A stretch of DNA of 64,000 bases. Origin: Candidatus Zixiibacteriota bacterium (GTDB lineage: Bacteria > Zixibacteria > MSB-5A5 > UBA10806 > 4484-95). The stretch spans positions 1 to 64,000 of the forward strand of contig JAAEQD010000345.1 of assembly GCA_024231855.1 (NCBI GenBank), in the 5' to 3' direction. Below the pieces are notes generated by a model. It did no database searches. It saw nothing but the letters and a program-made list of their open reading frames with translations, and was not told the DNA's origin. Within the stretch, counting starts at the first letter, position 1, and each line of letters opens with the position of its first letter. Shown piece after piece: positions 24,430 to 28,916 of the stretch. Both the position numbers and the translations under genes were made by a program.

Positions 24430-25713
24430 TTAACGTAAAAGAACCATTTTTTCTGTTTCATTTGTTCCTGCCAAACGAGCAAAATAGATACCTGTTACCA
24501 CCTCCTGGCATCTCATATCCAGCCCGTTCCAGATTACACTGTTATATATCGAATGATCTGACCTTGAGCTTAACCGTTTTACCAATCGGCCGCCGATATC
24601 GAATATCTCGATTGTAATGGTATTCCCCGTTTTGCTCTCATAAGGTATCACCACAGATGAGTTAAAGGGGTTGGGATATGGCGTATTTAAGCTGCATTTA
24701 TAGGGGATTTCCGCTATTTCATCAATTGATGTACGGGTATCCAAAATGGCGATAGAGACCGGCCCGGAGCCGACATTATAGGTATCGATTATCTCGCCTT
24801 CAGAATTAAATTTCGAAACCGAATTAGCAATCTGTCCCACCGAATAGATATAATCAAGCGAATCGATGGCTATTCCATAAGAGCCCGTACCGACCAGGAT
24901 TGGATTATCATCGCCTCTTAACAGTACTCGATCCAGGGTATCGTAGCTGTACACATGCCCGTCATTGACCCAACCTCCGGCCGAAATAAAACCGATTCCG
25001 GCCGAGTTGATGGCGAATTTGACCGGAAAACCGCCGGTCGCCAGCGAATCGACCGCCATCATCTCCCAGGGATCGATAAAATATATCATGCCAAATACCG
25101 AGCTATAATTGCCGGTACAGATTACATTGATCAAGCCATCCGGGCCAACCTCGACAGCCTGAGGATTCTTGCTTACATTTACCCTGGCCAGTTCGGTACC
25201 GCTACTGGTTTCCAGAATGGAAACCGAACCCTGGCCATAGCTGAAATCGATCGGATTAAAGCCGGTATTGGTGACATAGAGGCGATCCCCCTGAGAGACA
25301 ATACCCTCGGGCGAAAGCCCTACCTCATAGGTGTCGATAACCGATCCCGCCGTTAAATCCACAGCGTAAACCGATGATGTAGCCAGGCCGGTGACATAGG
25401 CGAAACCGCCGGAAACCGCGACATTCCAGGGATTGCTGTTTAGCGGAAGTAGAATCTCCATATCTATTGAGTAGTCTGACGGGTCAATTACCATCAAACT
25501 GGCGGAAGTCGAATTGACCACATATAGCATTTCGCTATGGCAAATGACTTGATTAGGAACAGCTCCCAGAGTAACGATATGATTTTGAACCTGACCTGTC
25601 TCAAGATTTATTCTCGAAAGGGTTTCGGCGGAGCCGTTGATGACAAAAGCGCTATTCTGAGCCAAAGCCAAACTGGCGCCGATCAGTATGAATAGTAATA
25701 CAATTTTTTTCAT
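24430..25713 (-). CDS. YncE/YVTN-like beta-propeller protein with T9SS sorting domain
   Basis: Signal peptide; NSAFVINGSAETLSRINLETGQV...MLYVVNSTSASLMVIDPSD repeats; C-terminal NTPYPNPFNSSVVIPYESK...TGIYFARLAGTNETEKMVLLR. Confidence 0.85.
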   Translation of the reverse strand: MKKIVLLFILIGASLALAQNSAFVINGSAETLSRINLETGQVQNHIVTLGAVPNQVICHSEMLYVVNSTSASLMVIDPSDYSIDMEILLPLNSNPWNVAVSGGFAYVTGLATSSVYAVDLTAGSVIDTYEVGLSPEGIVSQGDRLYVTNTGFNPIDFSYGQGSVSILETSSGTELARVNVSKNPQAVEVGPDGLINVICTGNYSSVFGMIYFIDPWEMMAVDSLATGGFPVKFAINSAGIGFISAGGWVNDGHVYSYDTLDRVLLRGDDNPILVGTGSYGIAIDSLDYIYSVGQIANSVSKFNSEGEIIDTYNVGSGPVSIAILDTRTSIDEIAEIPYKCSLNTPYPNPFNSSVVIPYESKTGNTITIEIFDIGGRLVKRLSSRSDHSIYNSVIWNGLDMRCQEVVTGIYFARLAGTNETEKMVLLR

Positions 25714-25728
25714 TTCCTGTCCTTTATT

Positions 25729-27915
25729 TTACAGTTTTATTGTCATACCTAAGTGGAAGCTTCTCGGAGGCATCGGTTGATACTCCAGAAGCTCATAGTC
25801 TATATCAGTAAAATTATCAATTTTAAAATCCCAAATCGACGATACGTTTCTAATTTTAAACTCGACACCGGCCGATAAATTTACTCTCGTGTACGGCTTA
25901 AGCCACTTGGTATTCGCTTCCAAAAAATAGCATTTGCCCGAATCATACATCGATACGGTTAAATATACTCCGCCATAATTTAGGTTTATCCATAGCGTAT
26001 TGACATATAGAGGCTGATGGATAATGAATTTACCATAATTATCATTGCCCTCTTCCCGGTTCAATGCCCAAGAACGGACTCTTGAGAAATCCGCTTTTAA
26101 AATGCCATTGGGAGATTTATAACCGGCGATGAAAGTCGTACTGAAAAGATCGGAATTCGAAACGTTTACCGGCTTGAATTTCACACCCTGTGAGCGGCGC
26201 CAATATATCAGATCTTTATAACGAATATCACGATACTCGATCGAAAATCGCCAATCGCCAAACCGGGTAAAAGCGGCAAACAGTTCAGATGTAAAAGATC
26301 GTGATTGTTCCGGCTTCAAATCGGGATTGGCCATGACGAAAACATCCTCCCGCCAATGAAGTTCAGCTAAACCGGGCAATCGAAAGGAATTGGCATAGGA
26401 CGAACGTAAGCCGATTGAAACAACCTTCTCATAGATAATTGATGAAGTCAAAGAGGTTGAGGTATAATCCTTGTTATCGGCATTACAGAAAGAACTGGAT
26501 AAACCCGCGGAGAGCGATATTCTATCAACCTTCCGCATCAATCCCAAATTGCCTGATACTTTGTGAATATTACGAATAATCTTGCGAAGTGCCGATGTCG
26601 GTCGGATGAAATCCTGGCCTACAAGCATACTATGTTCATGAGATAATTTTGAATTGACTTTGAGCCATTCCGATTTAATGTATTCAAAGCCCGAGGTCAA
26701 GTTCAATTCACGTTCATGGTATTTAGTATCGAAGGGAATCCAACTTTCGTAATCATTATATAAGGTTTTCCTTTCCAGGTATGATAACATAGTCATGATA
26801 CGACTGGATTTTCCCGGATCACTGGATAATTCTCCTCCCACCGAGATTGCGCTTTTATTCGATATGGCATTCGGCGAGGGTGCGTCAATTCGCCCGGGAA
26901 CACCGTTGACTCCATCATAAATAAAACCCGATAAACTCAGATAGTTTTCATATAGCGAATTAGAGTATGAAAAAAAGTACTTATTTCGGTCAGAAAAAGC
27001 ATTTAGCCTGGTTTTATCGTCACCAGATCTATCAATATAGTTATAATCATTTCTGATGAAGCAATTTTCCCATATTCCATTTAATACTCCATAGCCGGCT
27101 TTCGAGTAATTGATCCCGGTTACATAGTTTTCATCACCAAAACTACCTCTTGATATCGAGACTTCAACTGGACTTAAATTACCGCCCCTTTTTGTGACAA
27201 GATTAACTGTCCCGCCTAATCCGCCATCAGTGACGGCATCTGTGGCTCCCGGTGAATAATATTCGATTTTGGAAATCGCGTTTAAGGGTATTTGCTCCAG
27301 ATCGGCCCTGCCGGTTAAAAGGGAATTTAACTCACGGCCATCGATTAAGATGTTTACGCCCTCGGATCTGATACCATTGGCTGAAATATACGTTTCACCG
27401 GTCGCGGGCGAACTAATCAGATTTAATCCGGGAATACTACCGATTAATTCCTTTACGGATTGATTTGATTTTTTATCGAGTTGATAACTTTTTGCGATTA
27501 GACCGAAATTGCCATTACCGGCAGGCGCGGATGCTTTAACATGAATCGGAGCGGAATTAATTAAATCCTGCCCAAGAAAAATATCGCGCCTTACAGTTAC
27601 ACCCCGGCCAATAGCGATTCTATCATTAGTGCAGACAATAACCGAGCCGAAACCGCAACTCAGGCGATATTCTCCCGGAGGGATGTCGTAAAAATAGTAA
27701 AATCCTTCATGATTTGTAGCAGATTTGTATGAGGTGTTCTTTATAGCTATTATGGCGTCGGCAACCGGTCCATGTTTGTCAATCACCTGTCCATAAAGCT
27801 TAAGTATACTTTGAGAATAAACCGAATTAGCCGCCGCTACAACTATAATCACCGTCAGGATGAGTAATAAAAAACTCCAGGAGGTCCGGAGCCCAAATAA
27901 TGAATTCACAGCCAA
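25729..27915 (-). CDS. TonB-dependent outer-membrane receptor, probable cobalamin (BtuB-like) transporter
   Basis: Carboxypeptidase-regulatory-like N-terminal domain, plug (VKELIGSIPGLNLISS...NILIDGRELNSLLTGRADLEQIPLNAISKIEYYSPG), beta-barrel; cobalamin riboswitch directly upstream. Confidence 0.85.
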   Translation of the reverse strand: MAVNSLFGLRTSWSFLLLILTVIIVVAAANSVYSQSILKLYGQVIDKHGPVADAIIAIKNTSYKSATNHEGFYYFYDIPPGEYRLSCGFGSVIVCTNDRIAIGRGVTVRRDIFLGQDLINSAPIHVKASAPAGNGNFGLIAKSYQLDKKSNQSVKELIGSIPGLNLISSPATGETYISANGIRSEGVNILIDGRELNSLLTGRADLEQIPLNAISKIEYYSPGATDAVTDGGLGGTVNLVTKRGGNLSPVEVSISRGSFGDENYVTGINYSKAGYGVLNGIWENCFIRNDYNYIDRSGDDKTRLNAFSDRNKYFFSYSNSLYENYLSLSGFIYDGVNGVPGRIDAPSPNAISNKSAISVGGELSSDPGKSSRIMTMLSYLERKTLYNDYESWIPFDTKYHERELNLTSGFEYIKSEWLKVNSKLSHEHSMLVGQDFIRPTSALRKIIRNIHKVSGNLGLMRKVDRISLSAGLSSSFCNADNKDYTSTSLTSSIIYEKVVSIGLRSSYANSFRLPGLAELHWREDVFVMANPDLKPEQSRSFTSELFAAFTRFGDWRFSIEYRDIRYKDLIYWRRSQGVKFKPVNVSNSDLFSTTFIAGYKSPNGILKADFSRVRSWALNREEGNDNYGKFIIHQPLYVNTLWINLNYGGVYLTVSMYDSGKCYFLEANTKWLKPYTRVNLSAGVEFKIRNVSSIWDFKIDNFTDIDYELLEYQPMPPRSFHLGMTIKL

Positions 27916-27939
27916 CCTCTCACTCGCAGGTTAATTTTT

Positions 27940-28102
27940 GGCCAGCGGCAGGCAGGTTTCCTGACTTACGACAAACGGATCGACCTATGCCTTCCCATCA
28001 TTGGACAGTGGCATAAGTGGGAATTAGTCGTTTACAGTAGCGGGACTGTGACGGATTTCCACCGTCTTCCCTTTTATCCCAAAAGGGCACCAAACCGCTT
28101 AA
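27940..28102 (-). ncRNA. Cobalamin (B12) riboswitch
   Basis: Minus strand: GCGGTTTGGTGCCC..GGGAAGACGGTGGAAATCCGTCACAGTCCCGCTACTGTAA...GCCACTGTCC..GGGAAGGC...AGTCAGGAAACCTGCC. Confidence 0.95.
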
Positions 28103-28114
28103 TTTATTATAGGC

Positions 28115-28144
28115 TTTATACGAGATTTCACATCAGAATGTCAA
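28115..28144 (-). promoter_or_regulatory. Predicted sigma-70-type promoter for the riboswitch transcript
   Basis: Minus strand TTGACA-N18-TATAAA just upstream of the riboswitch. Confidence 0.5.
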
Positions 28145-28250
28145 GGAAATTCTGATGGCCAAATATTTTACCCTTTACTTAAGGGTGGATTTCTCGATTA
28201 TGGATCTTACCGGCCGTTAGAATTCGGTTACCATTTTTACGTACGCCGGA

Positions 28251-28916
28251 CTAATCCTGTTTCCGTCTTTTAGTCTTAGATAATCCTAAAACTTCGTTAC
28301 GATGGATAGCGACTGACGCCTTGGTTCTATTCAAGGCGGCGGCAATCTGACTATCGGTCATATCTTTATAATTTCTTTCGATAAAACTGTTCTCCTCGTC
28401 GGAATAGCCCTTGATCACTCGCTTGGGCCTGTTTAAAATGCGATTACGGTGATGCGTAACCGAGATCAATGATCGATTCAGAGCTTTGGCAATCGATGTA
28501 TCAGTCATTCTTTCGAAATTATCGAGAATAAATTGGTTTTCCTCCTCGGTGAAATTTCGACGATTTACTTTCTTTTTGCCCAGAACGACTAAACGGCGGT
28601 AGATGATAGATTTCAGCGGTTTGCCAAGCTGAATAGCCATTTCCGAATCGGTCATCTTATAATAGTTGCCGAGAATAAAACTATCATCGTTTTCAGTAAA
28701 ATTATACTTGCTTTTACGTCGTCGAGGCCGGTTTTTCAGCGCCATCATACGAGAGCGCCTTTTTATACCTAGTTCTTTGAATACCAATTGAACATACTGA
28801 CGGCTGCAACCGTAGTGTTCACCGATATCGGTTAGGGATAGCTTTTCCTGATGATACATCTGGAACAGTTTTTCTTTTTCGCTAACCATGCGTTGTTTTA
28901 AAGCGCGTTCTGCCAT
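28251..28916 (-). CDS. Putative DNA-binding protein: N-terminal HTH plus three tandem SANT/Myb-like repeats
   Basis: LSLTDIGEHYGCSRQYVQLVFKELGI; then NFTENDDSFILGNYYKMTDSEMAIQLG.. / NFTEEENQFILDNFERMTDTSIAKALN.. / GYSDEENSFIERNYKDMTDSQIAAALN... Confidence 0.7.
   Translation of the reverse strand: MAERALKQRMVSEKEKLFQMYHQEKLSLTDIGEHYGCSRQYVQLVFKELGIKRRSRMMALKNRPRRRKSKYNFTENDDSFILGNYYKMTDSEMAIQLGKPLKSIIYRRLVVLGKKKVNRRNFTEEENQFILDNFERMTDTSIAKALNRSLISVTHHRNRILNRPKRVIKGYSDEENSFIERNYKDMTDSQIAAALNRTKASVAIHRNEVLGLSKTKRRKQD

Follow-up and report, generated by a model that had tools for sequence, protein, structure and literature searches.

The stretch of DNA analysed here, referred to as the window, comprises positions 1 to 64,000 of contig JAAEQD010000345.1 from a Candidatus Zixiibacteriota bacterium (assembly GCA_024231855.1; 5.37 Mb in 415 contigs), and it carries on its minus strand, in this order, a cobalamin riboswitch, a TonB-dependent receptor gene and the gene of a seven-bladed beta-propeller related to the BtuG proteins of Bacteroides. 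The riboswitch (27934-28110) is matched by RF00174 over its full length (model positions 1-189) with 98.7 bits, the gathering threshold being 31.5 bits; it is the sole Rfam match within the window and the single copy in the genome. The receptor gene runs from its stop at 25729 to 27909 or 27915, the GTG at 27909, 6 nucleotides after GAGAGG, being a likelier start than the listed TTG at 27915. The propeller gene (24430-25713) encodes 427 amino acids. An earlier reading from the sequence only had described a cobalamin riboswitch ahead of a TonB-dependent receptor and a propeller starting 15 nucleotides past the receptor stop, and it was borne out in both points: the Plug domain of the receptor (residues 144-235, 27211-27486) scores 48.1 bits against a PF07715 cut-off of 23.9, and the gap is exactly 15 nucleotides. 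The 3' end of the riboswitch lies about 10 nucleotides ahead of GAGAGG, the likely Shine-Dalgarno sequence of the receptor, with no terminator between the two, an arrangement that fits translational control and suggests that the riboswitch acts at translation. The B12 operon seems to consist of two genes, because those downstream of the propeller read, by our own assignment, as ribosomal protein L31, a DUF1385 protein and release factor 1.

Relatives of the receptor and the propeller

By profile and by fold, the nearest relatives of the two proteins are the partners in the BtuB-BtuG complex of Bacteroides. A family profile built from 31 receptors and searched against the PDB matched BtuB1, BtuB2 and BtuB3 of Bacteroides thetaiotaomicron (7e-69, 1e-63 and 1e-56) and E. 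coli BtuB (6e-55), with E. coli YncD far lower at 5e-32, and a Foldseek comparison of the AlphaFold2 (AF2) model of the window receptor (predicted local distance difference test, pLDDT, 73) placed BtuB3, BtuB1 and again BtuB3 at ranks 1-3. XusA is among the matches of both searches. With the Bacteroides and E. coli BtuBs at the top of profile and fold searches alike, the receptor is BtuB-type in a wide sense. E. coli BtuB belongs to the same receptor superfamily and is likewise controlled by a B12 riboswitch, but it has no propeller partner and scores under the Bacteroides BtuBs against the receptor profile. The closest overall likeness is to BtuB1G1, BtuB2G2 and BtuB3G3 of B. thetaiotaomicron, in which a riboswitch operon also joins a TonB-dependent receptor and a seven-bladed propeller.

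The propeller model (pLDDT 82 overall) has seven blades with velcro closure, the core spanning residues 19-324 (24742-25659, pLDDT mostly above 85) and the velcro strand residues 318-324. When a family profile built from 36 propellers was searched against the PDB, BtuG chains made up 12 of the first 13 matches (9e-19 to 2e-12), and the value for E. coli YncE was only 1e-4; hhalign, as a test of BtuG-specific homology, gave a probability of 98.4 over 158 columns. In the Foldseek comparison, sixteen BtuG chains occupy ranks 2-17 and YncE rank 28, the template modelling (TM) score by target length being 0.73-0.79 to stand-alone BtuG chains and 0.44 to the two-domain chain 8blw_B. An assignment of the propeller to YncE or to a PQQ-related protein was ruled out by the scores. 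YVTN propellers match each other widely; a search with B. thetaiotaomicron BtuG1 in six-frame translations of 12 whole Zixiibacteriota genomes nevertheless gave a single locus in each of the nine genomes that carry the paired operon, and every time this was the linked propeller (7e-8 in the window); the three whose operons are without a propeller gave no match.

BtuG2 clamps its ligand between the loop Asn54-Thr64 and the beta5A loop Asp236-Pro249, whose Tyr239 touches it (PMC10404256). The numbering of chain 8bmx_D is the same as that of the paper (Trp194 in VNCW, Tyr316, Tyr335). Both clamp arms are recognised in the window propeller by sequence alignment alone. Loop N26-T31 (25621-25638) aligns to Asn54-Thr64, with TLSYYD of BtuG2 opposite TLSRIN of the window, and loop N149-G162 (NTGFNPIDFSYGQG, 25228-25269) aligns free of gaps to the beta5A loop, HMMER setting DGGYEGSPYGYEAP of BtuG2 opposite NTGFNPIDFSYGQG. 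The residue aligned with Tyr239 is F152, a position that holds Phe or Tyr in 36/36 members of the aligned propeller family; T31 is likewise invariant (36/36) and N26 is kept in 35/36. On the receptor side, the segment W572-N584 (26164-26202) aligns to extracellular loop 8 of the Bacteroides BtuBs, and its F580 stands opposite BtuB3 Tyr538, a Phe in BtuB2 and a Trp in BtuB1, the aromatic that has been proposed to push B12 out of BtuG (PMC10404256). The published boundaries of the loop-8 tip, Ser524-Leu531, did not match the chain letters; the residues were assigned from the Tyr/Phe/Trp triple, together with the shift of 20 residues between chains 8p97_A and 8p98_A.

Linkage of the pair across the phylum

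Named relatives, the published genome RBG-1 among them, place the organism in Candidatus Zixiibacteriota. Conservation of the pair was followed in 119 genomes, namely that of the window and 118 relatives. A cobalamin riboswitch is found in 108 of them, nearly always only one, and a good match to the propeller core in 67. In 52 of these 67 genomes, the window included, the propeller lies on the contig and strand of the riboswitch, 2.2-3.2 kb after it, and because this spacing recurs in so many genomes the linkage is not due to chance. The remaining 15 either have riboswitch and propeller on separate contigs or gave no riboswitch match; several of them are clear contig breaks, in which the receptor is open at the contig end or the propeller lies at most 305 bases from it. 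In a phylum-wide count over 134 genomes, the propeller occurs in 73, nearly always as a single match.

At the loci read around riboswitches, two kinds of receptor can be told apart. Complete receptors resembling that of the window number 49, and in 47 of these, across 16 families, the propeller is the very next gene; the two exceptions have a small lipoprotein in its place (G037) or an unrelated gene on the opposite strand (G098). The second kind, of which 25 are complete, mostly at 640-715 amino acids, never has the propeller as the next gene. The genes neighbouring the pair vary between families, and the pairing is therefore not mere synteny. With the two genes linked in 52 genomes and 47 of 49 receptors paired, the recurrence of the pair behind B12 riboswitches in related genomes, which the sequence-only reading had named as a check, is strongly borne out. 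The loop-8 position is aromatic in 48 of the 49 receptors of the paired type and also in 18 of the 25 without a propeller; the residue was thus ruled out as a clean discriminator of paired receptors, and it is consistent with a partnership with the propeller rather than decisive. The window receptor also has an N-terminal CarboxypepD_reg-like domain (residues 40-87, 27655-27798; PF13620 at E=1.5e-5 and PF13715 at 4.2e-5, both under the curated cut-off), and the few N-termini of unpaired receptors that were inspected are without it. In one relative (G014), a homocysteine S-methyltransferase gene (L074 4157-5098) follows directly after the propeller in the riboswitch operon, an arrangement that links B12 uptake with methionine synthesis.

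Export, anchoring and the use of B12

The propeller begins with a probable Sec signal peptide, read from the sequence (residues 1-18, 25660-25713, cleavage at ALA/QN), and ends in a type IX secretion system (T9SS) type A sorting domain (residues 346-424, 24442-24678, PNPFN...KMVLL), which is over the cut-off in both PF18962 (34.1 against 27) and TIGR04183 (34.7 against 23). The genome of the window (G000) encodes the corresponding machinery, with SprA and PorU over the cut-off, so that both marks of a T9SS cargo, the sorting domain and the apparatus, are found together. There is no Cys near the N-terminus and hence no lipobox, and a lipobox pattern scan of 47 family members gave one doubtful match. 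The sequence-only reading had noted both the PNPFN sorting domain and the missing lipobox, and on these points it is confirmed. Of the marks of BtuG membership, seven blades, BtuG-specific homology, linkage to a riboswitch and btuB and, by sequence alignment, the clamp loops are found in the window propeller; the N-terminal lipobox Cys with an export signal, which marks the BtuG surface lipoproteins, is absent from it, and for this reason the protein is classed as homologous to BtuG but with a different type of anchor, and not as a BtuG lipoprotein.

The C-termini of the family are diverse. On a 45-member tree, dockerin-like repeats form the C-terminus of 32 propellers, a T9SS domain that of 11 and a hydrophobic stretch with a basic end that of 2, and at least 4 changes of tail type are needed, the T9SS tails falling in one or two clades. 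The dockerin-like tails consist of two repeats of the form GDxNGD...DLxDLIYLVNYLFxGGP. The two propellers with a hydrophobic stretch (G054 and G064) close with RKGV or KRRG, which resembles an exosortase-type signal. SprA and PorU occur in nearly all propeller-bearing genomes whatever the tail, so the tail does not simply track the presence of the T9SS. Of the idea of a T9SS-exported BtuG analogue put forward from the sequence, the BtuG part was strengthened from analogy to homology by the PDB profile, the fold and the BtuG1 search of whole genomes; the T9SS part turned out to be one anchor among several in the family, and T9SS export as the rule of the family was ruled out, dockerin-like tails being commoner.

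As for the use of the vitamin, the window genome contains a MetH B12 domain (4e-109), from which it follows that the cell uses B12, and a CobB/CbiA gene. Its assembly is larger than most relatives (5.37 Mb against 2-4 Mb) and has 8.5% contamination, and whole-genome presence claims are for these reasons less safe than those made for the contig of the window. The sole, weak FecCD match in this genome is the membrane part of an apparent zinc ABC system. Among 16 genomes tested, a FecCD match is absent in 7, 3 of which are single-contig, and in the Zixiibacteriota of this set no credible BtuC-type (FecCD) permease accompanies the receptors behind B12 riboswitches.

Around the operon, a hairpin resembling a terminator, with a T-rich stretch after it, occurs at 27872-27894, shortly within the 5' coding part of the receptor; it could be part of the expression platform of the riboswitch or a chance occurrence, 8 terminator-like sites having been found in the region against 4.2 expected. 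A promoter scan yielded no signal above shuffles. Upstream of the riboswitch, the open reading frame 28251-28916 (221 amino acids) appears to encode an N-terminal helix-turn-helix and repeated SANT/HTH-like units (ENxFIxxNYxxMTDSxIAxALNRTxxSV), a repeat protein of an unusual, regulator-like type.

Mechanism, alternatives and meaning

The locus is very probably a two-gene B12 uptake operon under riboswitch control, in which a BtuB-type receptor is paired with a T9SS-exported lid homologous to BtuG. At low cobalamin, the riboswitch would permit synthesis of both proteins, and the propeller would cross the inner membrane via Sec and the outer membrane via type IX secretion, to be tethered on or near the cell surface by its C-terminal domain. 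Corrinoids would be bound in the mouth of the propeller between the two clamp loops, and the propeller would act as a lid that passes them to the receptor, loop 8 of which may eject the ligand as in Bacteroides. The most likely mechanism, judged by homology, is the pedal-bin sequence of BtuB-BtuG, in which the lid captures the ligand and closes, loop 8 ejects it and TonB drives transport. In the AF2 model the first and last strands of the propeller share one blade, and since both ends leave the same blade, the exchange of a lipid for a C-terminal domain need not alter the geometry; the geometry may thus be unchanged and the C-terminal anchor may be functionally equivalent to the N-terminal one.

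Several observations weigh against this interpretation. The top single PDB match of the propeller profile is not BtuG but an archaeal S-layer propeller with highly regular repeats (3e-32), identity to BtuG is about 25% with about half of the propeller covered well, and Trp194 of BtuG2 is not conserved, being Leu in the window. The receptor reaches 73.1 bits against the TIGR01779 equivalog cut-off of 599.7, which is still its best NCBIfam match, and it is not filed under that BtuB equivalog. A single-sequence BtuB1 search of the window genome ranks another receptor (on contig C39) above it, and as this search is not clean, the argument for the receptor rests on the family profile and the fold search. 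Finally, no BtuC-type permease was found in the window genome. The higher-ranked hit is a second receptor frame of 644 amino acids (G000:C39:4233-4601), and the sole cobalamin riboswitch of the genome is on another contig.

The breadth of YVTN cross-matching and the S-layer protein at the top of the PDB list would suit a YVTN/YncE propeller of the generic kind, with a surface role of another sort, as an adhesin, an assembly factor or a quinoprotein-like protein, that neighbours the receptor only by history. A precedent would be YncD and YncE of E. coli, a neighbouring receptor-propeller pair as well; YncE with YncD/PqqU resembles the present case in that a secreted YVTN propeller stands beside a TonB-dependent receptor, but the ligand is different and the similarity much weaker (1e-4 for YncE and 5e-32 for YncD). 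Such a history is very improbable, given that BtuG1 finds a single protein per genome and that this is the linked propeller, that the linkage holds over 16 families while the neighbouring genes change, and that YncE and YncD score far lower. The propeller might also bind corrinoids without serving as a receptor lid, being released into the medium or held on the matrix as a scavenger or reservoir. The lipid linker at the N-terminus that forms the hinge of BtuG2 is missing from it, release of T9SS cargo is possible, and the dockerin-like tails of most homologues could attach elsewhere; the near-strict pairing with one receptor type and the absence beside the other, the loop-8 aromatic in nearly all receptors of the paired type and the fact that both halves are homologous to those of a known 1:1 complex speak against it and make it unlikely.

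Within the reading of the locus as a B12 uptake operon with a BtuG-like lid, a narrower version, which we regard as rather doubtful, is that what the pair imports is not cobalamin but another corrinoid, or else a precursor such as cobinamide, and that this feeds salvage. BtuG2 binds cobinamide too (PMC10404256), and the CobB/CbiA gene would agree with salvage; nothing in the present data tells corrinoids apart, however, and BtuG2 is itself promiscuous. A wider version is offered tentatively, as somewhat short of an even chance: the Zixiibacteriota may possess a phylum-wide, lipid-free branch of BtuG in which the lid was kept and the anchor exchanged for a T9SS domain, dockerin-like repeats or a hydrophobic tail, and whose receptors feed an inner-membrane route other than BtuCDF.

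According to Wexler et al., BtuG homologues occur only in Bacteroidetes, in a search that covered human gut genomes (PMC6143338), and in 2025 other BtuB-using organisms were still reported to have no BtuG (PMC12751083). Our literature searches returned no paper tying BtuG to T9SS cargo or to Zixibacteria and no papers on Zixibacteria with a T9SS, and by title and abstract none of the work on Zixibacteria and cobalamin concerns uptake. Compared with the BtuBG systems of B. thetaiotaomicron, the closest PDB relatives of both proteins, the window pair conserves the clamp loops and the loop-8 aromatic; it differs in the propeller, which has a C-terminal T9SS domain and no lipobox instead of an N-terminal lipid, in the phylum, and in the operon, which has two genes with no BtuH, BtuJ or BtuCDF beside them. 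The window propeller is a homologue of BtuG that probably works in the same way, while lacking the lipobox of the BtuG described so far. SusCD, RagAB and XusAB of Bacteroidota also co-encode a receptor and a surface partner, but for different ligands; the surface partners there are lipoproteins, and those of Sus and Rag are not propellers.

The pair would represent a receptor-lid system in a second phylum, one for which environmental metagenome-assembled genomes are so far the sole source. Lid-assisted capture of B12 would then not be confined to gut Bacteroides, and a system regarded as restricted to Bacteroidetes would be wider and more varied. As one propeller core occurs with three kinds of C-terminus, the function of the lid appears separable from the lipid anchor and from the surface-lipoprotein export signal, which makes it testable whether the hinge of the lid needs a lipid. 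BtuG2 is already a reagent for stripping corrinoids from soil extracts (PMC11287211), and the Zixiibacteriota propellers are candidate tight corrinoid binders from environmental bacteria.

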